Below are positions 2,297 through 21,498 of a stretch of DNA of 37,736 nt, piece by piece. The stretch's first letter is position 1; each line of letters begins with the position of its first letter. The position numbers and the translations under genes were made by a program. The notes beneath the pieces are model-generated. The model did no database searches. It was not told the DNA's origin and saw nothing but the letters and a program-made list of their open reading frames with translations. Source of the stretch: Sedimentisphaerales bacterium (GTDB lineage Bacteria; Planctomycetota; Phycisphaerae; Sedimentisphaerales; Anaerohalosphaeraceae); assembly GCA_016926155.1 (NCBI GenBank), contig JAFGPC010000012.1, positions 1 through 37,736 of the forward strand, given 5' to 3'.

Positions 2297-3361
2297 ATGA
2301 AGCTCGACGATAAACGATCCCCATGGACCAGAGGGACCAAGTATTGTATATCACTTCTTTGTATCCTTTTCATTTTTCCAGTAGTGCTGTTTTCCATCAA
2401 CGGCTGTGGAAAAGGGGATGAAACCAAGGCACACGAGGTAGTTTTGTATTGCTCTGTGGATCAGAACATTGCCGAGCCGATCATCGCAGTCTTTGAAAAA
2501 GAGACGGGCGTGAAGGTCCTGGCCCGATATGACACGGAAGCCAGTAAGACCGTGGGGCTTGTGCAAAAGATCCGGGCGGAAGCGGCCCGACCGGTGGCGG
2601 ATGTGTTCTGGTCGAGCGAGATTTTTTATACCATTCAACTGGCCGATGAGGGACTGCTTGCTTCCTACAAAAGCGATACGACGGAGAAATGGCCGGCGGT
2701 TTTTAAGGATGCCCAACAGCAATGGTTCGGGCTGGCCCTGCGGGGAAGGGTAATCGGGTATCATACCGAGCGAGTAAGCGATGAAGAGGCTCCGAAGAGC
2801 CTAGAGGATTTGCTGGATCCCAAGTGGAAAGACCGAATCGTGATCGCTAATCCGGACCGTGGAACCACGGGGGGAGATGTGGCGAGTTGGTTTGTGGAAT
2901 ACGGCCCGGAAAAAGCTACGACGCTTTTGAAGAATCTAGCATCCAACGGAATCCGCGTGGTGGAGGGCAACAGCACCGCTGTGCGGATGGTGGCCAACGG
3001 ACAGGCGGATTTGTGTTTGACGGATACAGACGACGTATATGCCATCCAACGCAACGGGGGCAAAGTGGCATTAATGCCGTTGGATCGAAACAGCAAGGGA
3101 ACTCTGGCGATTCCGAATACATGTGCGGTGCTCAAAGGCGCGCCCCATCCGGCAACAGCAAGCATGTTGGTGGAATTTTTACTCGTCGGCAGCGCGGAAC
3201 GAATGCTTTTGGAGAGCGATTCCCATAACTGGCCCGTGGGATTTGAGCCGGGGTCCGAATATTCCAAGTACGCAATCCCGGATCCGATTGAAGTGGATTA
3301 CAGCAAGGTCGCCGAGATGATGCCCCTGGCCAAACAAGCCGCACGGGAGATTCTTCGTTGA
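2297..3361 (+). CDS. Lipoprotein solute-binding protein of an Fe/thiamine/phosphonate-type ABC importer
   Basis: This 354-aa protein has a hydrophobic leader followed by a lipobox-like INGC at about residues 34-37, so it should be a lipid-anchored periplasmic binding protein. The mature part begins VVLYCSVDQNIAEPII and continues with the two-lobe fold typical of bacterial extracellular solute-binding protein family 1/6 (FbpA/FutA-like). ATG 2297 is preceded by a strong AGGAGG (2281-2286) directly after the stop of the previous gene. It overlaps the permease gene by 4 bp. In classical ferric-binding members a tyrosine pair sits in the C-terminal lobe. The corresponding region here appears to be LTDTDDVYAIQ, with a single tyrosine, so ferric iron is not assured as substrate. 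Thiamine, phosphonate or another ligand remains possible. Confidence 0.85.
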   Translation: MKLDDKRSPWTRGTKYCISLLCILFIFPVVLFSINGCGKGDETKAHEVVLYCSVDQNIAEPIIAVFEKETGVKVLARYDTEASKTVGLVQKIRAEAARPVADVFWSSEIFYTIQLADEGLLASYKSDTTEKWPAVFKDAQQQWFGLALRGRVIGYHTERVSDEEAPKSLEDLLDPKWKDRIVIANPDRGTTGGDVASWFVEYGPEKATTLLKNLASNGIRVVEGNSTAVRMVANGQADLCLTDTDDVYAIQRNGGKVALMPLDRNSKGTLAIPNTCAVLKGAPHPATASMLVEFLLVGSAERMLLESDSHNWPVGFEPGSEYSKYAIPDPIEVDYSKVAEMMPLAKQAAREILR

Positions 3362-5823
3362 AAACGAACCAATGGTCTCAGCGGCCGGCCGTATCAAGCT
3401 GGGCGGTTTTATGGATAGTTTTAATCATTATTCCGCTTTGTTCTCTTTTGTTGCAGATGCGCCCCAGCCCGGGAGAAATATTGCCTGCGTCCCGCATCGG
3501 CATCTTACTGTTTCATTCCCTGGTTTTGTCGGGGACAATCGCCCTGATTTCCGTTCTATTAGGATGTCTCCCCGGGCGTGTGCTAGGCGCCTGTCGGCAT
3601 GGGCGAGGTTTGTTATTACTGATGCTTGTGCTGTCCATGGTTCTGCCTCGCTATGTAATGTATTACGCATGGACTCTCCTGCTCAGTCCTACGACATTTC
3701 TAGGCGGAATAATTGCCACCCGGATGAGATGGGCACAAGCGGCAGGATGGATTACGGCGACCGGAACGCTAATATTATGGTACTGGCCTGTAGCAGCGCT
3801 GGTCATATCTCAGGGTTGGCGTCAAATGAATCAAGACTGGATCGATAGCGCCCGGCTGGAAACCGGACGATTGGGTGTGTGGAGGCGTATTATCCTGCCA
3901 CAACTTACGGGTCCGATGGGACTGGCTTTTGTGGTGTGTTTTGTGCTGGCGCTATCGGAATTCACTACATTTCATCTGGCAGGAGTGAACACCATCGGAA
4001 CGGAACTGGCCCTTTTGTATGACCTGACAGGCATGGAGAGCTGTCCGGTGGAGTTTGCAGCCCCGGTTGCATTGATTGCCCTGAGTGCGGCCTTTCTGGT
4101 TCGTCACGGATCGAAGTGGTGGAACAACATCGGCGGATCGTCAGGACGACTTATTTCTGTTCGTTCAATGGACTGGATAGCGTTTGTTCTCCTTGGAATG
4201 CTTTCGGTGATTTTGCCGGTGGGATTACTCCTCATGTGTGTGCGCAGCCGAAAGCCGTTCGTACAGTTCCTGACGTTGCACAGTGATGATATAACACATT
4301 CTCTGGCAGTAGGTGTTTTGACCGCGATATTGGCTTATATTGTGGCACAAGGTTCCATACAAGTGAATCGAACAGGTAAAGGCGGACGATGGACGGGGAT
4401 CATTGCACAAACCAGTCTTTTGTTCATGATGTTCCTACCGGCGTCACTCCCGGCTGTAGCCTTATTGAAGGTTCTGGGATCCCATCCTGTCCTTGCCGGT
4501 ATCCGAGAAAGCGAATGGGTAGTTTCCATGGGCCAGACCGGGCGTTATGCCGGATTCGCATTGATCCTGTTATTATTGTTACGCGGCTCATCGAGACGAT
4601 CTCTGGATGAGGCGGCATGTCTGGATGGAGCATCGTTCTGGCAGCGTTGGAAATGGATTCATTTTCCCCGCACCTGGCCGGTCGTGCTGGCGGTATTTGT
4701 CCTGATTACGATGTTCAGCATGACAGAAATTACCGCAACAATGGTGCTGCTGCCGGCCGGCGTGGCCAGTTTTTCGCAACGGTTGTTGAACCAGATGCAC
4801 TATGCACGAGATCAGCAGGTGATCGCTTCCTGCCTGATCCTGATCGGTTTGTTTGGTTTGCTGACTATTGGCGTTGTCGGATTGCTCCGAATGACAACCC
4901 TCCGCCGCATGGTTTTGAGCGTTTGTCTCGGAATGACTTTTCTCGGACTAACGGGCTGTGAGAAAACCGGAGGCAGCTATGCGGCCCGGATTGTGGGCAG
5001 CTTCGGCCGAACGGGACGAGGACCGCGGGAATTTGCGTATCCTCGAGTGATCGAAATTACCGATCGGCAAGAGCTTTACGTGTGCGACAAGACCGGCCGT
5101 ATCCAGCGGTTTTCCGGCGATGGAATTCTACTGGACTCTTTTACAATGCCACAGATCGAGACAGGCTTGCCGGTCGGAATGAGCATGGGCCCGGACGGAA
5201 ACCTGTATGTGGCCGATACGCATTATCATCGAGTCATGGTTTTTACGCCGGAAGGTCAAAGGCTGCGAGAGTTTGGATCGTTCGGAGAAACCGACGGATG
5301 CTTTATTTATCCGACCGATGTCGCCTTCGATAAAGAGAAACGTATTTTTGTCAGTGAGTACGGGGGTAACGACCGGGTCAGTGTATTTACTCAGGAAGGA
5401 GAGTTTCTTTTCCGTTTCGGGGAATTCGGGGACGGTCATGGACAGTTCAGCCGGCCTAATGCGCTATGCATGGATACCCGGAATGGGATCTTGTACATAG
5501 CCGATGCGTGTAATCATCGAATCGCAATGTATACTCCGGAAGGACAATTGATTCGTTATATCGGCAGAGCGGGTCGTGAACCGGGACAATTCCGGTATCC
5601 TTATGATCTGACCTTGATGAGAGACGGCACATTGGTGGTTTGCGAATATGGAAATAATCGCATACAATTGCTTGACCAGGACGGAGGATGTAAGAAGATC
5701 TATGGCGAACCGGGACGTGAGCTGGGTCAGTTGGCGTATCCGTGGGGTGTCGTGGTGGATCGCGAAGATCGGGCCTATATCGTAGATGCCGGCAATGACC
5801 GGATTCAAGTGTGGCAGTTATGA
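3358..5823 (+). CDS. ABC importer permease fused to a lipobox-containing NHL beta-propeller
   Basis: This 821-aa protein starts at TTG 3358, overlapping the preceding stop as TTGA. Residues 1-511 form a two-module FbpB-like permease with about 12 membrane segments. Both EAA loops are visible: DSARLETGRLGVWRRIILP (about 163) and DEAACLDGASFWQRWKWIHF (about 417). Residues 540-821 carry about six NHL-type blades (for example YVADTHYHRVMVFTPEG and YIVDAGNDRIQVWQL). Between them lies MTTLRR plus a hydrophobic stretch ending in LTGC (Cys534), which looks exactly like a lipoprotein signal. In-frame ATG codons at 4891 and 4909 could start a separate lipoprotein. No stop codon or frame change separates the two halves. 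It may be a true fusion or an internal-start two-product gene. No cognate ATPase gene is next to it. Confidence 0.85.
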   Translation: MKTNQWSQRPAVSSWAVLWIVLIIIPLCSLLLQMRPSPGEILPASRIGILLFHSLVLSGTIALISVLLGCLPGRVLGACRHGRGLLLLMLVLSMVLPRYVMYYAWTLLLSPTTFLGGIIATRMRWAQAAGWITATGTLILWYWPVAALVISQGWRQMNQDWIDSARLETGRLGVWRRIILPQLTGPMGLAFVVCFVLALSEFTTFHLAGVNTIGTELALLYDLTGMESCPVEFAAPVALIALSAAFLVRHGSKWWNNIGGSSGRLISVRSMDWIAFVLLGMLSVILPVGLLLMCVRSRKPFVQFLTLHSDDITHSLAVGVLTAILAYIVAQGSIQVNRTGKGGRWTGIIAQTSLLFMMFLPASLPAVALLKVLGSHPVLAGIRESEWVVSMGQTGRYAGFALILLLLLRGSSRRSLDEAACLDGASFWQRWKWIHFPRTWPVVLAVFVLITMFSMTEITATMVLLPAGVASFSQRLLNQMHYARDQQVIASCLILIGLFGLLTIGVVGLLRMTTLRRMVLSVCLGMTFLGLTGCEKTGGSYAARIVGSFGRTGRGPREFAYPRVIEITDRQELYVCDKTGRIQRFSGDGILLDSFTMPQIETGLPVGMSMGPDGNLYVADTHYHRVMVFTPEGQRLREFGSFGETDGCFIYPTDVAFDKEKRIFVSEYGGNDRVSVFTQEGEFLFRFGEFGDGHGQFSRPNALCMDTRNGILYIADACNHRIAMYTPEGQLIRYIGRAGREPGQFRYPYDLTLMRDGTLVVCEYGNNRIQLLDQDGGCKKIYGEPGRELGQLAYPWGVVVDREDRAYIVDAGNDRIQVWQL

Positions 5824-8789
5824 TCGCAAGTTCGTACACATTTTATTTCTCACAGCCGTGGTGGCTGGTCGCCCTGCTACTGATCGTTCCGGTTGTATGG
5901 ATGGGACGACGACATATGACGGCTCTGGGACCGGTGCGGCGCTGGACCGCGATCATTCTCCGATCGTCGGTGGTATTGCTCCTTGTGCTGCTTCTTGCCC
6001 GATTGTTGATAGCCCGAAAAAATGAACAGCTTACGTTAATCAGCGTGATTGATCGAAGCCAGTCTATCCCGCAGGCCCATGCCGACAGCGCCCTCACATT
6101 TTTAGAGGAACAACTGCAAGCCGAGAATCCCGGAGGGATCGAAAACCTCGATGCCCAGGATCGACTGGCCGTGGTGGATATTGCCGAGGCACCTAGCATC
6201 AGCGCTCTGAGTTCTTCAAAGATGGAAATCCGGGAACGGAATACGTCTTTGGTTGGTTCGCAGAGCCGGTTATCGGATGGGATTCAGATGGCGATGGCGA
6301 TTGCGCCACCGGATTCAGCGACGCGGATTCTATTACTCAGCGACGGTAACGAGACTTCAGGCGATTTAAAGGAGGCGGCTCGTATTGCAGCAACGAACGG
6401 AATCCCCATCGATGTGCTGCCTGTGGAATACGAATACGAGCAGGAGGTCGTGTTCAAGAGAATTGCAGCGCCTGCCAGAGCGAGGAGTGGACAAACCGTT
6501 CCCCTGCGTTTTATCCTCAACAGCACAAAAGACACTACAGGGCGGCTGACCCTCAGCTTGAACGGTACACCAATCGATTTGGATCCGGATTCGGATGCGA
6601 CCGGGGCGATGATTGACCTGCAGGAGGGAACCAATGTCAAGACGGTGTCGCTGCCGGTAGGGACACGGGGAATGCATGAGTTTGAAGCGGTATTTGCCCC
6701 GGACGATCCCGCGGAGGATGTGGTGGCAGCAAACAATCGGGCCACGGCGATGACGTATGTGGCCGGACCGGGACATGTGGTTGTGGTGGACACGGATGGA
6801 ACAACGGGGCCGCAGATGGCCGACGTGCTGCGCAGCGGGGATATCGATGTCCGTTATCTTCCGATCGATCAATTCCCGGATGACCTGGCCTATCTGATGG
6901 ACAGCGACGCGATCATTCTGAGTAATGTAGACGCGGGCAGTTTTACGTTTCAACAGCAGGAAATGCTGACGCGGTATGTAATGGACCTGGGGGGCGGACT
7001 GGTCATGATCGGTGGCCCCCAATCGTTCGGAGCGGGCGGCTGGATCGGCTCATCCGTAGCCGAAGTGCTGCCCGTGGATTGTGATCCGCCGCAGAAAAAA
7101 CAAATGCCCAAAGGGGCATTGGTTCTGATTATGCATGCCTGCGAGATGCCCAACGGAAATATGTGGGGCAAGAAGGTGGGTATCGCCGCGGTCAATACGC
7201 TCAGCTCGCAGGATCTGGCGGGAGTTTTGGACTACGGCTGGCAAGGCGGCTCGTTTAACTGGGTTTATCCGTTGTCGGAAGTCGGCAATAAAAGCAAGAT
7301 TACCTCGGCAATTCGCGCAATGACCATGGGGGACATGCCCGATTTCGGATCACACATGCAGGCAGCATACAATGCTTTGCTCAAAGTACAAGCGGCGGCC
7401 AAGCATGTCATCATTATCAGTGACGGGGATCCGGCACTTCCTCCAATGGCGCTGTTAAACCAGTACAAAACAGCGGGGATTACCGCCACGGGGGTGGCTG
7501 TGTTTCCGCATTCGCCCAAGGATGTGCAGAGTCTGGCATCCGTTGCGCAGGTTACAGGAGGACGATTTTACAATGTAAGTAATCCGGCCCAGCTTCCACA
7601 AATTTTCATTAAGGAAGCCCAGGTGGTGCGTCGAGCGTTGATTCTGGAGGAGACATTTACTCCGAAATTGCAGTATTCCTTAAGCGAAGTGGCTCGGGGT
7701 CTTACGGCGGTCCCGCCGCTGGATGGGTATGTGCTGACCGGACCCAAGGGTGGATTCAGCCAGATTGTGCTGGTCAGCGAACAGGGCGATCCGATCCTGG
7801 CGACAAGCCAGGCGGGTCTGGGACGCTGCGTCGCTTTTACCAGTTCGGTCGACAGCCGGTGGGCATCCAACTGGCTGGCCTGGGGCGGTTTTGAATCGTT
7901 CTGGGAGCAGGTGGTCCGCTGGGTGGGCAAGCCTTCGCAGGCATCGGACGCCGAAGTATTCGTCGATGCACAGGGCAGGGATATTTCGGTTACGGTGGAA
8001 GCCGTCGATCCGGAGGGCCGGCCGATTCGGTTTTCCCATATCGACGCCCAGATCATCGGTCCGAATATGGATTCCAAGACACTGCCTCTGTCACAGACCG
8101 GATCAGGGCAGTATCAGGGGCAATTTCAAGCGCAAGAGGCGGGAAGCTATATTGTGAATCTTCGGTATCGAAAGATCGGAGAAGATACCCAGACGAATCT
8201 GATGCAGACCCCGGTGACGGTTCCGTTCGCGCCGGAATTTCGTGATTTGCGCGATAATCGCCCTTTGTTAGAGCAGGTGGCGGCCTTAAGTGGCGGACGT
8301 GTGCTGGATTTTGATCCCGAGACCGATCTCTTTGACTATTCCGGGCTGAAGTTTCCCGAGACTCAATTGCCTATTACCCGCTGGTTGTTGGTGCTATGGG
8401 TGGCTCTGTTTTTACTGGATGTGGCGGTGCGTCGTGTAGCCGTGGATTTTGCGGCGACCGGACGGAAAGCGGTTGCCTGGATTCGACATGGACGCAAAAA
8501 AGTGGAATCGGACGCCACGCTGGATGCTCTCAAACAGAGACGAAAAAAGGTTCAGGAACAGTTTAAGCAGCGTGTGGGAGTCCGATTTGAAGCAGGCGAG
8601 ACGGCACCGACGGAAACGTTAAAGATGCCGGAGGCGGATGTGAACAAACCGATAGAGCCGAGAACGGCAGGACCGGATAAAGCAAAATCAAAAGACAAAA
8701 CGGGAGAGCAGGAATCCCACATTCAACATCTCTTGCGGGCCAAACGAGGAGCAACCCGACGAGATGAATCGAAACCAGACGACAAGTAA
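5820..8789 (+). CDS. Large VWA / GATase-like membrane protein
   Basis: Start ATG 5820 overlaps the previous stop (ATGA); a GTG at 5811 would add three residues. The 989-aa product has a BatA-like N-terminus with two membrane helices (about 10-60) and a VWA domain with an intact MIDAS start D78-R-S80-Q-S82 and a later LLLSDGNETSGD. A glutamine-amidotransferase-like segment follows (about 310-420; LGGGLVMIGGPQSFGAGG). A second VWA-like domain (about 430-570; HVIIISDGDPALPP) has HACE where DxSxS is expected. After more beta-rich periplasmic sequence there is a C-terminal helix (about 854-873) and a charged cytoplasmic tail of about 115 residues. This class accompanies MoxR/DUF58 genes in planctomycetes and is probably a metal-dependent adhesion/assembly factor worked on by the MoxR ATPase. 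Confidence 0.9.
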   Translation: MIASSYTFYFSQPWWLVALLLIVPVVWMGRRHMTALGPVRRWTAIILRSSVVLLLVLLLARLLIARKNEQLTLISVIDRSQSIPQAHADSALTFLEEQLQAENPGGIENLDAQDRLAVVDIAEAPSISALSSSKMEIRERNTSLVGSQSRLSDGIQMAMAIAPPDSATRILLLSDGNETSGDLKEAARIAATNGIPIDVLPVEYEYEQEVVFKRIAAPARARSGQTVPLRFILNSTKDTTGRLTLSLNGTPIDLDPDSDATGAMIDLQEGTNVKTVSLPVGTRGMHEFEAVFAPDDPAEDVVAANNRATAMTYVAGPGHVVVVDTDGTTGPQMADVLRSGDIDVRYLPIDQFPDDLAYLMDSDAIILSNVDAGSFTFQQQEMLTRYVMDLGGGLVMIGGPQSFGAGGWIGSSVAEVLPVDCDPPQKKQMPKGALVLIMHACEMPNGNMWGKKVGIAAVNTLSSQDLAGVLDYGWQGGSFNWVYPLSEVGNKSKITSAIRAMTMGDMPDFGSHMQAAYNALLKVQAAAKHVIIISDGDPALPPMALLNQYKTAGITATGVAVFPHSPKDVQSLASVAQVTGGRFYNVSNPAQLPQIFIKEAQVVRRALILEETFTPKLQYSLSEVARGLTAVPPLDGYVLTGPKGGFSQIVLVSEQGDPILATSQAGLGRCVAFTSSVDSRWASNWLAWGGFESFWEQVVRWVGKPSQASDAEVFVDAQGRDISVTVEAVDPEGRPIRFSHIDAQIIGPNMDSKTLPLSQTGSGQYQGQFQAQEAGSYIVNLRYRKIGEDTQTNLMQTPVTVPFAPEFRDLRDNRPLLEQVAALSGGRVLDFDPETDLFDYSGLKFPETQLPITRWLLVLWVALFLLDVAVRRVAVDFAATGRKAVAWIRHGRKKVESDATLDALKQRRKKVQEQFKQRVGVRFEAGETAPTETLKMPEADVNKPIEPRTAGPDKAKSKDKTGEQESHIQHLLRAKRGATRRDESKPDDK

Positions 8790-8810
8790 TGTTGTGTAGG
8801 AGATGTGCAG

Positions 8811-9836
8811 ATGGCGGCGGAAAACCAGGAAGTCGAAAAACTTTGCCATGAATTCCGATCGATGTTTGATTCGCTTCGGAAAGAAGTGGGCAAGGTGATT
8901 GTAGGGCATGAAGATATAGTCGATAATGTATTGATCTGTCTCTTTTGCGGCGGCCATGTGCTGCTGGAGGGCGTGCCGGGACTGGGTAAGACGTTGCTGG
9001 TACGGACATTGAGTTCGGCCCTGTCATTGACGTTTCGCCGGATTCAGTTTACTCCGGATCTTATGCCGGCCGACATCATCGGCACCAATGTGATTATGGA
9101 AGACCAGGGAACGGGCCGGCGACAGTTTCAATTTCAGCCAGGGCCGATCTTCGGACAGATTATCCTGGCCGATGAGATCAATCGGGCCACCCCCAAAACC
9201 CAGTCGGCCATGCTGGAAGCAATGCAGGAACATTCGGTGACCAGCGGCGGGACTCTGCATCGACTGCCCGAGCCGTTTATCGTACTGGCTACACAGAATC
9301 CAATCGAACAGGAGGGAACGTATCCGCTGCCCGAAGCGCAACTGGACCGTTTTTTCTTTAAGCTGCTGGTTCCCTACAGCAATCGAATGGAACTGAAGAC
9401 GATTCTGGATCGAACCACAACAGCCGTCATTCCCGAGGCCAGTCCTATCGTGAATACCGAACAGATACTCGAAGCCCAGAAACTGGTCAAGCGGGTGGCG
9501 GTTGCCGACCATGTTCAGGATTATGCGATCCGCCTGGTGCTGGCGTCGCATCCGGGCGGGGAATTTGCAGCGGATATAACCAATCGATATGTTCGCTATG
9601 GTTCGTCGCCACGCGGCGTACAGACTTTGGTTCTTTCCGGAAAGGTAAGAGCACTGCTGGATGAACGGTATCATGTGAGTTTTGCGGATATCGCGGCATC
9701 CTTCCTTCCGGGGATGCGACATCGTATTCTGTTAAACTTTGAGGGGCAGGCGGAGGGCATTGAGAACGATGACCTTCTGAATAAAATTCTGGAAGTAACG
9801 CCAAGAGCGGTAGAGCAGGATTTAAAGACAGTGTAA
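8811..9836 (+). CDS. MoxR-family AAA+ ATPase
   Basis: I chose ATG 8811, because AGGAG at 8798-8802 is correctly spaced (8 nt) from it and not from the in-frame GTG at 8805. The 341-aa product has Walker A GVPGLGKT (54-61), Walker B with D121-E122 (IILADEINR), and the MoxR hallmark ATQNPIEQEGTYPLPEAQLD. A C-terminal AAA lid follows. MoxR ATPases are chaperone-like and act on VWA-domain or DUF58 partners, often in maturation of envelope or metalloprotein complexes. The immediate neighbours (a VWA protein upstream, DUF58 and BatA-like VWA proteins downstream) fit the 'MoxR proper' operon type. The substrate is unknown. Confidence 0.95.
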   Translation: MAAENQEVEKLCHEFRSMFDSLRKEVGKVIVGHEDIVDNVLICLFCGGHVLLEGVPGLGKTLLVRTLSSALSLTFRRIQFTPDLMPADIIGTNVIMEDQGTGRRQFQFQPGPIFGQIILADEINRATPKTQSAMLEAMQEHSVTSGGTLHRLPEPFIVLATQNPIEQEGTYPLPEAQLDRFFFKLLVPYSNRMELKTILDRTTTAVIPEASPIVNTEQILEAQKLVKRVAVADHVQDYAIRLVLASHPGGEFAADITNRYVRYGSSPRGVQTLVLSGKVRALLDERYHVSFADIAASFLPGMRHRILLNFEGQAEGIENDDLLNKILEVTPRAVEQDLKTV

Positions 9837-9915: not shown

Positions 9916-10827
9916 ATGGCAGCGGTTCTTGGAACATCCCAGCGAAAATTAAGTGATCTTCTGGATCCGGGTTTTATGGCCCGTCTCGATGCGCTGGACG
10001 TGCTCAGTCATAGGATGCTCAAGGGGCGGCTCCAGGGAGAACGACGTTCGAAGCGGCGCGGGCAGAGCGTGGAATTTGCCGATCACAGGCCGTACGTCGT
10101 GGGGGATGACCTTCGCTTTGTCGACTGGAATATTTACGGCCGACTGGATCAATTATTCCTCAAGCTATTTCTGGAAGAGCAGGATTTGACGGTGCATTTA
10201 CTGGTGGATGCCAGTGCTTCGATCACCCAGCCGGACAAGGATAAGAATACATACATCCGTAAACTGACCGCTGCGCTGGGTTATGTAAGTCTGGTGGGAA
10301 ACAATCGTGTTACGATCACGTTGTTCGGCGACGGGATTGTCGGACAAGTCGCCAATATGCGGGGACGTGCCTATATTCCACGGATGGCGGAGTTGATTCT
10401 GAATACACCCTGCGAAGGGACCAGTGATTTTGACAAGGCGTGCCGTCAGGCCGCCAGCAGCCGCGTGGGAACCGGCGTGATCATCGTCGTGTCGGATTTC
10501 CTGTTCAAGGAGGGGTATGAAAGCGGACTTCGGCGTTTGATCGGAGAGCAATACGAAGTGTATGCCATCCAGACACTTTGCCCGCAGGAACTGGATCCGG
10601 AACTGGCGGGAGATTTGAAGCTGGTGGATGTAGAGGATGCGGATGATTCGGAGATCACCGTCAGTTCGGCCCTGTTGAAATACTACAAGCGGAATGTGAC
10701 GGCATATTGTAATGCATTGAAAGATTTTTGCCTGCGACGCGGCGGAACCTATGTACTTGCCAACACATCCACCTCTGTGGAATTAATGGTCTTGAATTAT
10801 CTGCGAAGGATACAGCTTCTCCGTTAA
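9916..10827 (+). CDS. DUF58 protein (VWA-like MoxR partner)
   Basis: This 303-aa protein carries the complete DUF58 signature RRGQSVEFADHRPYVVGDD followed by LRFVDWNIYGRLDQLFLK (about residues 47-82), then LLVDASASI with the MIDAS-like D98-A-S100-A-S102. No membrane helix is evident, so it is probably cytoplasmic. DUF58 proteins are encoded next to MoxR ATPases and are thought to be their adaptors or co-chaperones. It lies 79 nt downstream of moxR, with no strong ribosome site before ATG 9916. Length and motif order are normal for the family. Confidence 0.93.
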   Translation: MAAVLGTSQRKLSDLLDPGFMARLDALDVLSHRMLKGRLQGERRSKRRGQSVEFADHRPYVVGDDLRFVDWNIYGRLDQLFLKLFLEEQDLTVHLLVDASASITQPDKDKNTYIRKLTAALGYVSLVGNNRVTITLFGDGIVGQVANMRGRAYIPRMAELILNTPCEGTSDFDKACRQAASSRVGTGVIIVVSDFLFKEGYESGLRRLIGEQYEVYAIQTLCPQELDPELAGDLKLVDVEDADDSEITVSSALLKYYKRNVTAYCNALKDFCLRRGGTYVLANTSTSVELMVLNYLRRIQLLR

Positions 10828-10840
10828 AAGAAACCGTACA

Positions 10841-10966
10841 ATGACAATACAAACCGTAAAACCAGATCGGCTGGAAAAAAAGAGATGGTTCTCTGTCACA
10901 AGAAAGTCGACTTGTCGTCTTTGTGGAAAGAGAACGGTTTGTAGAATTTTTTCCGTGAGACCGTAG
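10841..10966 (+). CDS. Possible 41-aa basic protein with a CxxC motif
   Basis: ATG 10841 lies 13 nt after the DUF58 stop and the frame ends at TAG 10964-10966, 2 nt before the BatA-like start at 10969, so it fills the 141-nt gap almost exactly. The predicted product is very basic and contains STCRLCGKRTVC (CxxC plus a third Cys). There is no clear Shine-Dalgarno sequence and I recognise no family. It may be a real small protein, a translational-coupling leader or a chance frame; the last is quite possible. Confidence 0.25.
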   Translation: MTIQTVKPDRLEKKRWFSVTRKSTCRLCGKRTVCRIFSVRP

Positions 10967-10968
10967 AA

Positions 10969-12936
10969 ATGGAATGGATGACACCCATCCTTGGTTCGAT
11001 AGCAGCGGCCGTAAGCATTCCGCTGCTGTTGCTGCTGTATTTTCTCAAGCTCAAACGGACCGAACAGCTTGTCAGCAGTACATTGCTCTGGAAACGGGCA
11101 ATCCAGGACCTGCAGGTGAATGCCCCCTTCCAGCGGCTTCGCAGAAATATTCTTTTGTTGCTTCAGATGCTGACTTTGCTGGCTATTCTCTTAGCGCTGG
11201 CGGGTCCTGTGATATCGTTGTTTACAGGTAAAGGGCAGCGTTACGTGGTGCTGATTGACCGTTCGGCCAGCATGAACGCCACGGATGTTCAGCCCAGCCG
11301 GCTGGCCGCCGCCAAGGCGGGCGCCAGGGACTTTATTGAATCAATCAATACCCGGGCATTTTTCCAACTCCAGGAAAGCGGGGATAAGGTCATGGTCGTG
11401 GCCTTCGACGAACACAGCAAGGTAATGTGCAATTTCACATCGGATAAACGACAATTGCTGGCAGCGATTGACGCGATAGAGCCTGGAGACGGACGGAGTA
11501 AGCTGGGTGAAGCCTTGACGGTTGCCAATGCGTTCGCACAATCCCTGGGAGATGAGGCCAACAATCGCAGTCCCCTGACACCGGCGCAGGTGATTCTTTA
11601 CAGTGACGGGCGGATTGCGGACCTGAACCAGATCGCGATTGCCGCCGAAGACCTGGTATTTCACCGCGTCGGTACATCCTTGCAAAATGCCGGTATTGTT
11701 ACCCTGCAGGCACGCCGCTCTTATGAGAATCCGGATGAGGTGACGGTTTTCGCAACTGCGGCGAATTATGGTACGGAATCAGTGACTTGTGATGTCCGAC
11801 TGGGATTGAATGAAGATGTGCTTTCCGTACGGTCAATAACGGTCCCGGCCCGAACACCCGGCACAGGCGACAATCCGGATGAACCGGGCAAGACAGCAGT
11901 GGAATTTTCTTTCCTGCATCCCGGCTCCGGTGTCGTTGAAGTGCGGCTGTTGCATAACGACACTTTTGATCGTGACGATGCCGCATGGGCCATACTGACG
12001 CCGCCTCGACAATTGTCGGTTTTACTGGTAACGGAGGGAAATCCTGTTTTGGAGTCGGCCCTGAAGGCTTGTCCGATTTCCAAGCTCGATAGAGTTACGG
12101 GCAGTGAATTTGACGCCATGGATCATGGGATTCTGGCAACCGAACAACCGTATGATGTCATTGTATTGGATAACTATGTGCCTGTCGATGTTCCGAAGAG
12201 TCGTTATCTGGTATTCGGCCGTCCTCCGAAGGGCATTGATGTCGTTGTGCCGGGTCAACTGGAAAGCCAGGTGATCGTAGACTGGCGCAGCCGTCATGCC
12301 GTGATGAAATATGTGAATATGGCCACTCTTTTTGCTGCTAAAACATATCAAATGATTCTTCCTCGGGATGCAGAAATACTGGCCGAATTCAATGAAACGG
12401 CGGCGATCAGCCTGCTTCAACGCAAAGGAAGTGTATTTCTCCTGGCCGGATTTGATGTATTGGATACCAATTGGCCGTTCGAACCGAGTTTTATTCTTTT
12501 CTTTTACAATTCACTGGCGTATCTGGGTATGCAGGTCGGCGCCGTTGAAATCAATCAACTTGCCACCGGAGATCCGATTCTTCTGGAAGGATTGGACGCC
12601 TATAAGCAGGTAACCATTGACGGTCCCGACGTTTCCGGACAACGGATTGAGGTTGATCCGAGCGGAACGGCGCGATTTGCAAATACGGATAAGGTGGGCG
12701 TATATACAATTACACTGGACGAGCAGAATGTCCAGGCGTTTGCGGTTAATCTTTTGGACAGCCACGAAAGCAATATTGAGCCCGCACAGGAACTTGTGCT
12801 AACCGGGGAAATCATCCAGGCCGAAGCGGAAGGGTCCAGCCGGGCCAGCGTTCCTCTCTGGCCGTGGCTGGTCTTAACGGCGCTGTTTCTCGTATGTCTG
12901 GAATGGCTTGTGTATAACTCGAAAGTAAGGATATGA
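10969..12936 (+). CDS. BatA-like VWA membrane protein
   Basis: This 655-aa protein starts with a BatA-type N-terminus: a hydrophobic helix (about 5-25), the family's typical LLWKRAIQDLQVNAPFQRLR stretch and a second helix (about 60-85). A VWA domain with MIDAS D97-R-S99-A-S101 (VVLIDRSASM) and a LYSDGRIADL segment follows. The middle is a periplasmic beta-rich/GATase-like part (ILATEQPYDVIVLDNYVP, FGRPPKG), and a C-terminal helix (VPLWPWLVLTALFLVCLEWL) ends the protein. It would sit in the inner membrane with its VWA domain flanked by helices and be a partner of the MoxR/DUF58 pair. Its ATG has no good ribosome site and directly follows a mini-ORF stop, suggesting coupled translation. Confidence 0.9.
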   Translation: MEWMTPILGSIAAAVSIPLLLLLYFLKLKRTEQLVSSTLLWKRAIQDLQVNAPFQRLRRNILLLLQMLTLLAILLALAGPVISLFTGKGQRYVVLIDRSASMNATDVQPSRLAAAKAGARDFIESINTRAFFQLQESGDKVMVVAFDEHSKVMCNFTSDKRQLLAAIDAIEPGDGRSKLGEALTVANAFAQSLGDEANNRSPLTPAQVILYSDGRIADLNQIAIAAEDLVFHRVGTSLQNAGIVTLQARRSYENPDEVTVFATAANYGTESVTCDVRLGLNEDVLSVRSITVPARTPGTGDNPDEPGKTAVEFSFLHPGSGVVEVRLLHNDTFDRDDAAWAILTPPRQLSVLLVTEGNPVLESALKACPISKLDRVTGSEFDAMDHGILATEQPYDVIVLDNYVPVDVPKSRYLVFGRPPKGIDVVVPGQLESQVIVDWRSRHAVMKYVNMATLFAAKTYQMILPRDAEILAEFNETAAISLLQRKGSVFLLAGFDVLDTNWPFEPSFILFFYNSLAYLGMQVGAVEINQLATGDPILLEGLDAYKQVTIDGPDVSGQRIEVDPSGTARFANTDKVGVYTITLDEQNVQAFAVNLLDSHESNIEPAQELVLTGEIIQAEAEGSSRASVPLWPWLVLTALFLVCLEWLVYNSKVRI

Positions 12937-15223: not shown

Positions 15224-16150
15224 ATGATTGAAACGCAGAAATTATCCAAGTATTACGGAAACCTCGCCGCTCTTGTGGACCTGGACTTGAAAATTGAACA
15301 GGGTGATATCTTTGGATTCATCGGTCCCAACGGCGCCGGTAAAACAACAACCATGCGCATCCTGGCAACGCTTCTGGAACCGACGCGAGGCCGGGCGTTT
15401 ATCGACGGACTGGATGTCATGAGAACCGGAAAAGAGGTGCGTCGACGAGTGGGATATATGCCGGACTTTATGGGTGTGTACGACGACCTCAAGGTTTTCG
15501 AATACCTCGAGTTTTTTGCGGCGGCGTTTAACATCGAACGAAAGAAACGCAAGGCCATCGTCGAAGGGGTCCTGGAACTAACGGACTTGCAGGGTAAACG
15601 GACCGCCGCCGTGGATAGTCTTTCCCGCGGGATGCAACAGCGGCTGGGCCTGGCCCGGGTGCTGATTCACGATCCGAAGGTGCTGATTCTGGACGAGCCA
15701 GCCAGCGGACTCGATCCCAGGGCGAGGATCGAGATTCGCGAGCTTTTGCGGGAACTGAAGCGAATGGGCAAAACCATCATGATCTCCAGCCATATCCTGA
15801 GCGAACTGGAGGAAATCTGTGATCATGTAGGGATTATTGAGCACGGCAAAATGGTATTCAGCGGAACCATGGATGAGATTCGCCGACAGATGGGAATTCA
15901 GAGCAAGATGCGAGTCCGTGTGGCCGGGGACCGTGATCGGGCGTTCGAGGTGCTCAGTTCGCTGCCGCAGATCAAGGAAGTCCGGCCTGAGGACGGTTAT
16001 CTGGCGGTCACCTATGCCGAGGGGCATGAGATTGACGGAACGATCGCTCGAACGCTGGTGCAGGCGGGACTGGATGTGATCGCCCTGGAGCCGGAACAAC
16101 TGAAGCTGGACAATGCCTTTTTACAATTAACCAAGGGGATTGTACACTAA
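15224..16150 (+). CDS. ABC-2 type transporter ATPase
   Basis: This 308-aa nucleotide-binding protein has Walker A GPNGAGKTT (34-42), an LSRGMQQRLGLAR signature (about 133), Walker B plus D-loop VLILDEPASGLDP (about 153) and a switch histidine in TIMISSHILSEL. About 90 residues follow the core domain, as in CcmA/NatA-type ATPases of ABC-2 exporters. It is 4 nt from the preceding gene and is followed by four permease genes, and it is the only ATPase for them in the window. It should energise one or all of these permeases. It is not an FbpC/MalK-type importer ATPase, so it is a poor match for the importer permease at 3358. Confidence 0.95.
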   Translation: MIETQKLSKYYGNLAALVDLDLKIEQGDIFGFIGPNGAGKTTTMRILATLLEPTRGRAFIDGLDVMRTGKEVRRRVGYMPDFMGVYDDLKVFEYLEFFAAAFNIERKKRKAIVEGVLELTDLQGKRTAAVDSLSRGMQQRLGLARVLIHDPKVLILDEPASGLDPRARIEIRELLRELKRMGKTIMISSHILSELEEICDHVGIIEHGKMVFSGTMDEIRRQMGIQSKMRVRVAGDRDRAFEVLSSLPQIKEVRPEDGYLAVTYAEGHEIDGTIARTLVQAGLDVIALEPEQLKLDNAFLQLTKGIVH

Positions 16151-16177: not shown

Positions 16178-17905
16178 ATGAGACAAAAAGCAACACAGAT
16201 ACTTACATGGATGAACAGATACAATCCTATCGATCTGGCCGGGCCGATCGTGGACAAGGAATTACGCGTTGCCGCCGGTCGCAAACGATATTATTTTCTT
16301 CGTACCTTGTATATTGCCATTCTGACTCTTTTCCTTGCCAGCGTCTGGTTTTCTCACGTTGGAGTGAGTCCCGTGCGGGCCGGAGCGCTCCGAGCGGCCG
16401 ACATGTCCAGTGCCGGAAGAATGACGATTATTACCATTGTGTCGTTCCAGTTTATCACCCTGCCAATCCTGGCCGTGGTGCTTCTGAGCAACAGTGTAAG
16501 CGATGAAATTCGCCAGGGCACATTAGCGGTCTTGATGACCACGCCTATTAATGCCCTGCAAATTGTCGTCGGGAAACTGTTCGGACGTCTGCTCGTTCTG
16601 GTGCTATTGCTGGCCATCAGCTTTCCACTGCTTTCGATTGTACGCGTATTTGGGGGAGTCCCATGGACTTTTGTTCTGGCCGGCGTCTTCCTGACGTTTA
16701 CAACATCCATGCTTGGCGGATCTCTGAGTCTGCTGGCGTCGATATCGATTCGTCAGGCGTATCGCTCGACCATTTTGGTGATATTAATACTGGTGTTTCT
16801 GTTCCTCGCGGCGATAGCCATTCATACCTGGAATACAGTCGGCGGTCCACCCAAGTGGCTCAAAGAAATGACCGGTTTTCTCAGATTTCTCAATCCGTAT
16901 GCGATTTTCTATGGAGTCAGCAGCACTTTACTTCCCGGCGGAGGCGGCCCGCAGATAATGAATGGATGGTTTGGACACTGTCTATTCATGGTATTCCTTT
17001 CCTCCGGGATCGCCCTGCTGGCAACGATTCGTTTGCGAAAGGTAATGCTGACGGAGGCCTTTGGAGGCGAAAAAAACAGTCTTCGTCGATGGTTTCGTCT
17101 GGATCGCAAGACCTTCATCGAACGTCGCGCTATTCGTCCCATACGGGGAGAATGTGTCATCTGGAAGGAATTACAGCGAATCCGGCCCCGAACGATTCAA
17201 CCGTTTTTATTTTATGGAGCCATGGCCCTCTTCATATACACCATCACAATCCTTGTACCGGGGCGCATTGTACTGTCAAAGACCTTTCACAGTTGGTTTG
17301 CAGGGATTCTGGTACTGACAGGTCTGATTCGGACCGCCTCGCTGGCCGCCGGCAGTGTCGCCAGTGAACGTGAAGGCCGATGCTGGCCCCTGTTACTAAC
17401 AACACTTCTGGATGAAAAGCAAATCATTCGAGGAAAAGTAGTGGCTATTCTGATTGACACCGCCCCCCTATGGATTTGGCTTTTTTTGCATACTGTTCTA
17501 TTTACCGCGATCGGCGTATTGGATCCTCTGGCGCCATTCGGTTTGCTATTAACAATCCCCCCGGGGATTTTATTTTTTATCGGATTGGGGATGTATTTCG
17601 GAACTCGCCTCAAAACTGTAACGGGGGCAGTGGCTGTCACATTCGCCGCACCCATTGGAATGAGTTTTCTTTTTCCCCTGCTGGGTTTTGCCAATCCCAT
17701 TTTCTGTGCGGCATGGAGTATGCAGCTTTCGACAGAAGATCTCCTAACGGAACCTTTCGGATTGGTCTTTCTTGGCAGTTTTGCGGCGGCGCCTATTATC
17801 GTCTATGCAACGTTGGGACTGGTATTTCTGTGGCAGGCGCGTTGCCGTGTGCGACGGGATGTCTTTGGTTTGGGACAAGTGGATGTGATAGGACCTCGTG
17901 GCTGA
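16178..17905 (+). CDS. ABC-2 permease paralog 1 (double ABC-2 unit)
   Basis: This 575-aa polytopic protein opens with the shared GPIVDKELRVAAGRKRYYFLR motif (residues 22-42, slightly different from its paralogs). It carries one ABC-2 motif near 107-140 (SDEIRQGTLAVLMTTPINAL) and a second, weaker copy near 395-430 (SEREGRCWPLLLTTLLDEKQ). A central WKELQRI element resembles the N-terminal KEL motif, suggesting that the two halves arose by duplication. About 12 membrane helices are apparent. It follows the ATPase by 27 nt and overlaps the next permease by 8 bp. The substrate is unknown. Confidence 0.9.
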   Translation: MRQKATQILTWMNRYNPIDLAGPIVDKELRVAAGRKRYYFLRTLYIAILTLFLASVWFSHVGVSPVRAGALRAADMSSAGRMTIITIVSFQFITLPILAVVLLSNSVSDEIRQGTLAVLMTTPINALQIVVGKLFGRLLVLVLLLAISFPLLSIVRVFGGVPWTFVLAGVFLTFTTSMLGGSLSLLASISIRQAYRSTILVILILVFLFLAAIAIHTWNTVGGPPKWLKEMTGFLRFLNPYAIFYGVSSTLLPGGGGPQIMNGWFGHCLFMVFLSSGIALLATIRLRKVMLTEAFGGEKNSLRRWFRLDRKTFIERRAIRPIRGECVIWKELQRIRPRTIQPFLFYGAMALFIYTITILVPGRIVLSKTFHSWFAGILVLTGLIRTASLAAGSVASEREGRCWPLLLTTLLDEKQIIRGKVVAILIDTAPLWIWLFLHTVLFTAIGVLDPLAPFGLLLTIPPGILFFIGLGMYFGTRLKTVTGAVAVTFAAPIGMSFLFPLLGFANPIFCAAWSMQLSTEDLLTEPFGLVFLGSFAAAPIIVYATLGLVFLWQARCRVRRDVFGLGQVDVIGPRG

Positions 17906-19709
17906 TTCAGTATTCCAGGCAATCGGACATATGTTTCGACTCAGTCGATGGGTCGGGCCGATCTTTGATAAAGAGTTGCGGGTGTCAAGCCGCCGAAAGA
18001 GGAACTATGCGCTGCGATTCGGATATCTTGCCTGTCTAACGGCGTTTATCGCCCTGGTCTGGTTTAGTTCCGTCAATTTGCAGATCCGGGGCACAGTGGC
18101 CTATCAACAAGCCAAAATGGCGGAAGCCGGTAAAATCATTGTTGTTACAATCGTGATTTTTCAATTTTTAGCGACACAGTTTATTGCCATAATCATGTTG
18201 AGTACGTCTATCAGCGACGAAATTTACCATCGCACTCTGGGTGTTCTAATGACCACGCCAATTAACAGCTTTCAAATCGTGATGGGAAAGTTGTTCAGCA
18301 AACTGCTTCAGTTGCTGCTTCTGCTGGCAATCAGTCTGCCCCTTCTGGCGATTGTCCGAGTATTGGGCGGTGTTCCATGGAATTATATCCTGTCCGGTCT
18401 TTGCATTACGCTGACATCCATTATTTTTGCCGGTTCGGTAAGCTTGTTTTTCTCCATTGGCGGACGACGATCCTATGCCGTAATCTTGACCACCATTCTG
18501 GCGTTGGGTGTGGTGTATGCATTTATCCCCGGCTTAACGGTCTGGCTGTTTTACTACAGCAAGCTCCAGAATTATCTGGTGCCTCTTCTGGCCATTTTTA
18601 ATCCTTTTATTGTTATTGCAATGGAGTCGCAAACGGTCCTGCAGGCCTGGGGGGCAGGTGTGCTGCCCCGTTATTTTTGGGCGGTTCATTGCGGTCTTAT
18701 GCTGTTTTTATCTTCGATTATGCTGGCTTGGGCGGTTCGGATCGTTCGGAAGGCTGCTCTCAGCCAGGCGGTGGGAGAAAATCCGGGCCCATGGAAGCCG
18801 ATTTTTCATCGAAAGGCTCCCAAGAAAGCCCGCACAAGGGATGTTAATAAGGAACAGGAAAACGGTGCGATTCGAGATGTCATTGGTTCTCCGGTGATCT
18901 GGAAGGAGTTGCGAGCACCGCTGATCCAGGGTGGGAAACATCATAGCCTTATCGGTTTGATACTGGCTGTTGGAGCCCTTGTATTTACCTACTGGATGGG
19001 CTGGAAAGATGACCTGTTGCGGGAAGACAACACGCACATGTCGTACGTGACAATTTTCATGTTTATGGGATTGGTATGTACTCTGGTGCTTGCAGCGACG
19101 ATGATCACATCGGAGAAAGAACTTCGTTCCTGGCCGTTGCTGCTGGCAACCACGCTGGAGGACAGAGAGATTCTTTTAGGGAAGGCTGCCGGCGTTTTCC
19201 GACGCTGCCTCCCCGTCTGGCTGTTCATGGCAGTTCATGTGCTGTTATTTATCCTGGCCGGGTATATTCATCCCATAGCCATTGTTCACCTATTGCTGAT
19301 TATACTATGGATTGTTGTTTTTCTTACCGGAAGTGGATTGTATTTCAGCTCTCTATTTCGTCGAACAACAACCGCCGTCGTGGCCAACATGGCATTGGCC
19401 ATCGTACTCTGGTTTGTGGTCCCCGTAGTGCTGGGATCTCTCATCGAGATGGCCGACAATCCAAAACCTTTTCTTCTTTATATGCGGGCTCACCCCCTGG
19501 TTCAGACCAGCATCACCATGCGGGGCAACGGTGGAGATGTCAATGCGGAAACCCCCATGAATCAACTGCAATATATCTGGCCGGATCGAAAACAAAGCAG
19601 GATAGGAAACACCAATCTGACCCTGATTAATTCCGTTTTTCTTTACGGCAGTGCAGGCATTTTGCTTGGCTGGAGGGCCAAGAAGAGATTGCGAAAAAAT
19701 GTTTTTTAA
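17898..19709 (+). CDS. ABC-2 permease paralog 2 (double ABC-2 unit)
   Basis: GTG 17898 overlaps the previous stop by 8 bp and gives an N-terminus of the same length as the paralogs; ATG 17931 is the alternative. The 603-aa product has GPIFDKELRVSSRRKRNYAL near the start, ABC-2 motif copy 1 near 105 (SDEIYHRTLGVLMTTPINSF), a mid-protein SPVIWKELRAP, and copy 2 near 404 (SEKELRSWPLLLATTLEDRE) followed by RRCLPVWLF. It has many membrane helices. It is closest in pattern to paralog 4 (the same RRCLPVWL/KRCLPAWLP and RTTTAVV elements). Confidence 0.9.
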   Translation: MADSVFQAIGHMFRLSRWVGPIFDKELRVSSRRKRNYALRFGYLACLTAFIALVWFSSVNLQIRGTVAYQQAKMAEAGKIIVVTIVIFQFLATQFIAIIMLSTSISDEIYHRTLGVLMTTPINSFQIVMGKLFSKLLQLLLLLAISLPLLAIVRVLGGVPWNYILSGLCITLTSIIFAGSVSLFFSIGGRRSYAVILTTILALGVVYAFIPGLTVWLFYYSKLQNYLVPLLAIFNPFIVIAMESQTVLQAWGAGVLPRYFWAVHCGLMLFLSSIMLAWAVRIVRKAALSQAVGENPGPWKPIFHRKAPKKARTRDVNKEQENGAIRDVIGSPVIWKELRAPLIQGGKHHSLIGLILAVGALVFTYWMGWKDDLLREDNTHMSYVTIFMFMGLVCTLVLAATMITSEKELRSWPLLLATTLEDREILLGKAAGVFRRCLPVWLFMAVHVLLFILAGYIHPIAIVHLLLIILWIVVFLTGSGLYFSSLFRRTTTAVVANMALAIVLWFVVPVVLGSLIEMADNPKPFLLYMRAHPLVQTSITMRGNGGDVNAETPMNQLQYIWPDRKQSRIGNTNLTLINSVFLYGSAGILLGWRAKKRLRKNVF

Positions 19710-19764
19710 ACATGGAAAAGAAAAAGTCAGACGACGAGTGAATAGTGGATCGCAGGTCATTCAA

Positions 19765-21441
19765 ATGACAATAGATACCCCATTGAATCTATTGTCTTTA
19801 TCCTGGCTGGCCGGACCCATCTTCGACAAGGAGCTTCGGGTCGCCAGTCGAAGACGCCGAACCTATGTTTTACGGGCCGGCTATATTCTCCTGTTGCTGT
19901 TTTTCATCTGCATAACATGGTTCAATGTGATGTCTCGATTCAGAGCAGCGGGCCAAACCGGGCAAGCCGCCGCCATGGGACAAATGGGACAACAAATCAT
20001 CCTGACTATGAGCTGGTTCCAGTTCATAACGCTCCAAGTGCTGGGAACCGTGCTGATGAGCAATTCCCTATGCCAGGAAAGAATCCGGGGAAGCCTCAGT
20101 ACATTGATGTCCACTCCCATCCGGAGTGCTGAGATCATTCTAGGCAAACTTTTCGGACGCTTGCTACAACCGTTTCTTCTCTTAGCGGCAGGACTCTCGG
20201 TGTTGTCCATCCTGCGTGCTTTCGGGGGTATGGATTGGGACTATGTCCTGGGCAGTTTTTGTATTACGGTGACGGCTACACTGTTGGCCGCTTCCATCAG
20301 CCTGTTCTTTTCGATGAGAACGCATCGGGCCTACACTGCAATCTTATTAACCGCGGTCGTTCTTGCTTTTTTCTATGGAATCCCCGTCTTTATTCCATTC
20401 CTCATTTCCGGCAAAGCAGGTTCAACGATGCTCCAGTTGGGATTGACCAGCCCGGTCGGAGCCATGATGGAGATCAGTTACAATGTTTTCAGCGCCAATG
20501 CAGCCCCTGGTTTCTCATGGCCAAGGCATTGTCTATGGATGTGTGCCCTCAGTATCGTTCCGATAACGCTATCGGCATCGGGCTTGCGCCACGTCGCCCT
20601 TTCCTCCAATCGAATGCCTTATAAAAGACCTTTTTGGAAACGAATTCTACCGGGCGCACGACCGGCACAAGACACCCTTGTCAAACCTGTTCACGGCTCC
20701 CCGGTTCTCTGGCGGGAAATGCGGCATGTTTCAGGTAAAGGCATTATTATAGGTACGATCCTTCTTGGCTTGGCTTCCGTAGTGCCTTTGGCAGTGTTCT
20801 TACTCTATGGCAATCCGGGATGGATGGTTTTTTATCGAATTCACAGTCTTATCGCCATGGCGCTGTGGCTTATCGTATCGTTACGTACTTGTTCCATGGC
20901 GGCTGTAAGCATTACACAAGAGCGGGAATCACGAACATGGACATCCCTTCTTGCAACGCCCTTAAGTGAAACCGATATCCTCTTCGGCAAGGCTCTGGCA
21001 ATCGTATATCGCAATATATTTTTGTGGATAGTGTTATTGGTTACCAATCTCTTGTTTTACTGGTGCGTGTTATTTATCCAACAAAAGCAATCCTCCAACA
21101 TGGAACCGGACCAGGCAATCCAATACATTGTATATTTTTTCCTGTCCCTGGGTTCTTCCATTGCTTTTCTTCTGTATTTGATTGGTGTGGGATTATTCTT
21201 CAGTTCCCGCCTCCGCAGCACGACGGCAGCCGTTGCGGTAACCGTATTATTTATTTTGGTGTTCTATTTTCTCTCCCGCCTTCTGATTCCAATACTTTAT
21301 ACATTCTTTTCCGGTTTTTTTCCCTATACGTCGATTTGGTTTATGCTGATTCCATCTGTCCTGTATATTGCAGGTCACGCAGGATTAGGATTACTACTGT
21401 TATTTCTGACAAAACGCAGGCTGCGAAAAAATATCGATTGA
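19765..21441 (+). CDS. ABC-2 permease paralog 3 (double ABC-2 unit)
   Basis: The frame is open upstream to 19651, but alignment with the paralogs favours ATG 19765 (558 aa), where GPIFDKELRVASRRRRTYVL starts after about 15 residues. An ATG at 19699 overlapping the previous gene is possible. ABC-2 motif copy 1 lies near 102 (CQERIRGSLSTLMSTPIRSA, differing from the SDEI form of the others) and copy 2 near 383 (TQERESRTWTSLLATPLSET). A central SPVLWREMRHV replaces the usual WKEL. It is the most divergent of the four and may transport or dock something different. Confidence 0.88.
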   Translation: MTIDTPLNLLSLSWLAGPIFDKELRVASRRRRTYVLRAGYILLLLFFICITWFNVMSRFRAAGQTGQAAAMGQMGQQIILTMSWFQFITLQVLGTVLMSNSLCQERIRGSLSTLMSTPIRSAEIILGKLFGRLLQPFLLLAAGLSVLSILRAFGGMDWDYVLGSFCITVTATLLAASISLFFSMRTHRAYTAILLTAVVLAFFYGIPVFIPFLISGKAGSTMLQLGLTSPVGAMMEISYNVFSANAAPGFSWPRHCLWMCALSIVPITLSASGLRHVALSSNRMPYKRPFWKRILPGARPAQDTLVKPVHGSPVLWREMRHVSGKGIIIGTILLGLASVVPLAVFLLYGNPGWMVFYRIHSLIAMALWLIVSLRTCSMAAVSITQERESRTWTSLLATPLSETDILFGKALAIVYRNIFLWIVLLVTNLLFYWCVLFIQQKQSSNMEPDQAIQYIVYFFLSLGSSIAFLLYLIGVGLFFSSRLRSTTAAVAVTVLFILVFYFLSRLLIPILYTFFSGFFPYTSIWFMLIPSVLYIAGHAGLGLLLLFLTKRRLRKNID

Positions 21442-21462
21442 ATTGCAATTAAAGTATAACAT

Positions 21463-21498
21463 ATGACATACAAGGATTTGAGGTCGTTGGTTGAATAA
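21463..21498 (+). other. Possible 11-codon minicistron abutting permease 4
   Basis: ATG 21463 opens MTYKDLRSLVE and stops at TAA 21496-21498. The ATG of permease 4 begins at the very next base (TAAATG). Permease 4 has no close Shine-Dalgarno sequence. This could be a coupling leader, or a chance frame. Confidence 0.18.

Follow-up and report, generated by a model that had tools for sequence, protein, structure and literature searches.

Bacterial lipoproteins classically carry their signal at the N-terminus. An internal signal is known from FbcH of Bradyrhizobium, a cytochrome b/c1 polyprotein that is cut at that signal by type I signal peptidase. ABC importer permeases with fused substrate-binding domains are also known, as in OpuA and GlnPQ. 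The gene described here shares with OpuA and GlnPQ an importer permease joined to an extracytoplasmic domain; it differs in carrying an NHL propeller as that domain, with the substrate-binding protein (SBP) encoded by a separate gene and a full lipoprotein signal between the two parts. Also described are MoxR-vWA-beta-propeller ternary systems, in which the components occupy one neighbourhood, planctomycetes included (PMC7159879, subsystem 4). The locus resembles those systems (PMC7159879) in bringing together MoxR, VWA and a beta-propeller, and its MoxR matches bpMoxR above the cut-off, whereas its propeller carries a lipoprotein signal and is found in an importer/DUF58/BatA operon. As a possible parent, the bpMoxR ternary systems were considered and set aside. 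The MoxR of this locus fits AAA_3 much better.

The window, meaning the whole stretch of DNA that was analysed, is 37,736 nucleotides long and comes from a Sedimentisphaerales bacterium (contig JAFGPC010000012.1). The features at issue are as follows.

2297..3361, + strand: solute-binding protein of the importer (SBP_bac_6/8/11; Pfam E ~1e-18), lipoprotein-like (INGC)
3358..5823, + strand: permease-NHL fusion gene, 821 aa in one open frame with a TTG start
3358..4893, + strand: permease part, aa 1-512, with 12 helices and two EAA loops (AlphaFold2, fold match, MalG match)
4894..4959, + strand: predicted internal type II signal, with R516 and R517 as n-region, a hydrophobic core, LTGC and Cys534
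4957..5820, + strand: NHL six-bladed beta-propeller, predicted mature lipoprotein from Cys534 (Pfam NHL, 24 strands)
5820..8789, + strand: downstream VWA/GATase1-like membrane protein, its ATG overlapping the NHL stop
8805..9836, + strand: MoxR-type AAA ATPase (Pfam AAA_3 E 5.8e-63; synteny), same conserved operon
9916..12936, + strand: DUF58 and BatA-like VWA genes (Pfam; synteny), same conserved operon

The fusion gene overlaps its neighbours at both ends. At the 5' end its TTG shares TTGA (3358-3361) with the stop of the SBP gene, and at the 3' end its stop shares ATGA (5820-5823) with the ATG of the VWA gene, an overlap found in the same form in loci L004, L006, L008 and L009. The first-pass annotation, made from the sequence alone, had read 3358-5823 as one uninterrupted frame running from a 12-helix permease with two EAA loops, through a hydrophobic stretch ending in LTGC, to about six NHL blades. 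All of this stands: 821 codons are open on the + strand, the AlphaFold2 model has the twelve helices and the short EAA-loop helices, the codon of Cys534 is 4957-4959 at the junction, and the propeller has 24 strands in six blades of four. The ATGs it had marked at 4891 and 4909 are both in frame, as codons 512 and 518. The model was built from 24 related sequences, with a mean pLDDT of 81 and a pTM of 0.78.

The conserved gene order is a 593-aa protein, SBP, permease(-NHL), VWA, MoxR, DUF58 and BatA. The first of these (500-2281 in the window) is a coiled-coil, Gln-rich membrane protein that lies directly upstream of the SBP throughout the class, and Pfam and NCBIfam give no match to it. The SBP itself is matched weakly in NCBIfam by PhnS/ThiB-type binding proteins, each time below the cut-off, and its gene adjoins the permease gene in most relatives. 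An importer ATPase gene is absent from the operon as sequenced, the contig starting about 500 bases before the first gene. The sole MalK/FbpC-like ATPase elsewhere in the genome is encoded at G000:C178:35660-36751; no recognisable permease of this family is adjacent to it in the stretch examined, and this ATPase could serve the importer of the window. Farther downstream in the window there are four consecutive genes for ABC-2-type membrane proteins of 575-603 aa (16178-23262), which look like tandem paralogues and are preceded by an ABC-2 ATPase gene (15224-16150).

The permease half of the window protein is too divergent for a Pfam match above the cut-off. For BPD_transp_1, with a cut-off of 26.4 bits, the orthologue in L004 scores 21.3 and the remoter permease in L163 scores 30.7, while the window protein gives no match. 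The relationship appears in the structure. The AlphaFold2 helices of the first repeat span residues 6-32, 44-78, 83-109, 123-156, 171-204 and 228-256, and those of the second 270-293, 299-336, 341-374, 387-408, 427-455 and 485-512; a few of the twelve are interrupted inside their span. The EAA-loop helices fall at 159-168 and 412-422. The fold search places this part close to FbpB of the Thermus ferric importer FbpBC (9j4r; TM 0.75 by target), and residues 351-493 match MalG in a PDB sequence search (E 8.6e-6). As modelled, then, the permease part is an FbpB/ThiP-type type I ABC importer permease, with two six-helix repeats each bearing an EAA loop. It shares with that type the twelve helices in two repeats, the two EAA loops and an SBP gene directly upstream; unlike those systems, the window operon is, as far as the contig extends, without an ATPase gene, and a lipoprotein signal and a propeller follow C-terminally to the permease. 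Since the EAA loops would both be cytoplasmic, helix 12 should end in the cytoplasm, thus putting R511, R516 and R517 inside and Cys534 at the outer face. Judged from the model together with the positive-inside rule, the junction would have the orientation that a lipoprotein signal requires.

The C-terminal part is covered by Pfam NHL repeats (E 1.2e-29), and the propeller is modelled at a pLDDT of ~90. Its matches in the PDB, in both sequence and fold, are the NHL domains of TRIM71 and Thin at 29-31% identity, and the six-bladed NHL fold is shared with the propellers of TRIM71, Thin and PknD. In the TRIM proteins the NHL domain is cytoplasmic and binds RNA or protein, whereas the propeller of the window is predicted to be periplasmic. 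We infer that it probably serves the importer, the neighbouring VWA/MoxR machinery, or both.

The junction between these parts has a conserved pattern. A [G/A/S]-Cys behind a hydrophobic stretch is present in 84/84 distinct permease-NHL fusions, compiled from the fetched loci, and in 9/9 fusions of NHL to an importer ATPase (see below); the strict lipobox [LVI][ASTGVI][GAS]C is found in 53 of the 84. In the permease part Cys occurs at a frequency of 1.1%, and against that baseline the constant junction Cys is far above chance. An alignment of 24 fused relatives has G533 and C534 invariant and not one invariant column in the hydrophobic core. The n-region has a mean net charge of +2.8. The uncharged run before the Cys has a median of 16 residues in the fusions and 16 in the free lipoproteins, versus 25 in the preceding permease helix. 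Because this run is short, just as in the free lipoproteins, the stretch has not turned into an ordinary anchor. The genome of the window organism encodes LspA and Lgt (PF01252 and PF01790, each above the cut-off). Among 55 free NHL relatives, three of which were afterwards reclassed as fused, 51 have the [G/A/S]-Cys. Two divergent free relatives with an upstream ABC ATPase, L199 and L207, have lost the Cys, and L207 looks to be anchored by a membrane helix; lipidation is therefore dispensable in some members of the family.

The main rival to processing at this site is a permanent tether, in which the junction is an uncut 13th membrane helix and the propeller an accessory domain of the importer, with Cys534 perhaps carrying a lipid as a further anchor or having another use. 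In favour of the tether, the fusion is a single, widespread frame, and the known permeases with fused substrate-binding domains provide a parallel. A plain anchor needs no lipobox of the Gly-Cys type, yet 93/93 fusions keep one and the stretch stays short. Going by these sequences, a stretch that served solely as an anchor would not be kept to such a pattern. Nor does AlphaFold2 model a packed helix here: chain ends aside, confidence is lowest over residues 515-540, where pLDDT is <50 at 515-521 and 524-540.

The fusion is not confined to the window. Orthologues with an open fused frame, at 46-52% identity, are found elsewhere in the order, in different genera and families, and also in named Sedimentisphaerales and Phycisphaerae assemblies, and a profile search recovers many more permease-NHL fusions through the class at far lower identity. 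The 84 distinct fusions include three (L121, L083 and L153) in which NHL is joined to a divergent permease, and number 81 without them. There are also 17 adjacent split pairs, consisting of a permease gene and a free NHL lipoprotein gene, in families f9, f10, f13, f18 and f19 of the class; these counts of fused and split forms describe loci chosen for retrieval and are no census. In 7 of the 17 pairs a single in-frame stop is the only divider, and in most of those 7 the lipoprotein start lies about 10 codons or less past the stop. Family f18 has both states, fused in L070 and divided by one stop in L071, L072 and L103. Split homologues had been proposed as a check on the gene fusion, with consistently separate homologues, or a stop or frameshift at about 4890, as the outcomes that would speak against it. 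The search found relatives of both kinds, fused beside split, and the same open frame recurs in independent assemblies. The gene fusion is genuine, is conserved and has recurred. The existence of separate-gene relatives, several of them one stop codon apart, might by itself suggest that two genes had been joined by a missed stop or by an assembly or sequencing error. The frame is open in independent assemblies of dozens of genera with the junction pattern conserved, and we give an artefact practically no credence. Assembly error was accordingly rejected.

Fused and split states have interchanged repeatedly. On the NHL trees, fused versus adjacent split genes require 7 state changes with FastTree and 8 with IQ-TREE, of which at least 5 are forced by well-supported branches; the direction of change cannot be read from the count. 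Setting permease-fused genes against all others gives 9 changes. Such interchange is expected if both states yield the same two products, and its frequency does not suit one fixed architecture as the tether would have it. The fused form is common among the chosen loci, 84 versus 17 adjacent split pairs, which would fit a tether that is useful, and a 1:1 link to the transporter would account for the persistence of the fusion.

Internal starts of translation at 4891 or 4909 would also yield two products, an NHL lipoprotein made separately alongside the full-length fusion, as the first-pass annotation had offered among its options. The two ATGs are at signal-peptide distance from Cys534, and in split relatives the lipoprotein ATG is often 19-25 codons ahead of the Cys. 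In the fusions, those starts are not conserved. Any ATG, GTG or TTG at -36..-16 before the Cys is missing in 14/90 fused junctions, and start codons at the junction are neither conserved nor enriched relative to control stretches taken from those genes; in that interval an ATG is absent from all 9 ATPase fusions. A start codon accompanied by a Shine-Dalgarno match is seen in 1/81 permease fusions and in 0/31 of the clade of the window, versus 22% of free relatives. These organisms make modest use of Shine-Dalgarno sites, which leaves this last argument supportive and undecisive; the absent start codons weigh more. Internal initiation was rejected on the lack of conservation and enrichment of both kinds of site, and we consider it very improbable. 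The signal occupies residues 512-534 of 821, with no conserved internal start to make it the N-terminus of a primary product.

The same propeller has been joined to other proteins. In another lineage of the phylum (families f50 and f35), an ABC importer ATPase has independently been fused to NHL in frame, in 9 distinct cases that form one clade with full support.

L178:8414-10399: ATPase-NHL fusion locus, internal lipoprotein signal
L195-L197: ATPase-NHL fusion loci, internal lipoprotein signal
L200-L204: ATPase-NHL fusion loci, internal lipoprotein signal

All 9 carry the internal signal, for example SVRLLILYCCLWLCGGC, and none has a comparably hydrophobic stretch besides it. In locus L163, which is outside the class, an importer ATPase gene lies between permease and NHL, and it is this ATPase that is fused to NHL in f50 and f35. 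Since fusions occur with the permease and with the ATPase, NHL joins whichever gene is its upstream neighbour, and the lipoprotein signal is retained every time. Two further fusions were seen. In L086:1471-3333 (- strand), MiaA, a tRNA dimethylallyltransferase with the full IPPT domain, is in frame with an NHL lipoprotein across a hydrophobic stretch ending in LSC; this is one case. In L132:2-3703 (- strand), an NHL propeller is in frame with the downstream VWA protein to give 1234 aa, in genes that overlap in other genomes. Partners as different as a cytosolic ATPase, MiaA (L086) and VWA (L132) are unsuited to the one fixed architecture that a tether implies, and taken with the junction pattern they lead us to regard the tether as unlikely.

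We think it likely that the gene encodes a polyprotein, which Lgt and LspA would split into the permease and the NHL lipoprotein. The permease would insert through its twelve helices with the C-terminal end in the cytoplasm, as the modelled topology predicts. The basic residues and the hydrophobic stretch 512-533 would then serve as a lipoprotein signal within the chain and carry the propeller across the membrane. Lgt would lipidate Cys534, and LspA (signal peptidase II) would cut between Gly533 and Cys534. One product would be the permease, ending in a short tail helix at its C-terminus; the other would be an NHL lipoprotein of ~32 kDa, free of the permease and anchored to the membrane on the periplasmic side. 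The two would be made in a 1:1 ratio, as from the neighbouring separate genes of related families. Cleavage by signal peptidase II had been among the options first offered, and it has the best comparative support; the cut itself is predicted from sequence. In the open-access literature that was searched, outside which most subscription papers lie, no case of LspA cutting an internal signal was found, nor any precedent among papers on internal lipoboxes, bacterial polyproteins or permease-lipoprotein fusions.

The comparison suggests that in many Planctomycetota one long protein is made and then cut into two working parts. We lean toward the broader proposal that signal peptidase II acts in this phylum as a polyprotein processor, with lipoprotein signals in mid-chain releasing a lipoprotein from the product of its upstream neighbour. 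If so, the upstream domains can be polytopic or soluble and cytosolic (permease, ABC ATPase, perhaps MiaA), and operon neighbours can merge and part again with function kept. Cutting of internal signals hundreds of residues into a chain would broaden the definition of an Lgt/LspA substrate, add a second class of bacterial polyproteins made by a signal peptidase, and make the fusion of operon neighbours nearly neutral. Lipoprotein predictors scan the N-terminus, so annotation is expected to go wrong for such proteins and to overlook the lipoproteins in them.

Compared with the substrates of Lgt and LspA known from bacteria, the fusions share the basic n-region, the short hydrophobic core, the lipobox and the Cys, and differ in that the signal is internal, behind 512 permease residues or ~340 ATPase residues. 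As in bacterial polyproteins, one frame corresponds to separate genes in relatives, here in 17 pairs and with 7-8 changes on the trees. Internal type I signals in polyproteins are known; type II signals within a chain, following a polytopic or cytosolic protein, as these sequences appear to carry, would be new, no report of them having turned up in the open-access literature searched. FbcH likewise joins a membrane protein to an exported one in a single frame, with an internal signal between them, but that signal is cut by type I signal peptidase, whereas the site in the fusions has the features of a signal peptidase II site and a lipid anchor is expected.
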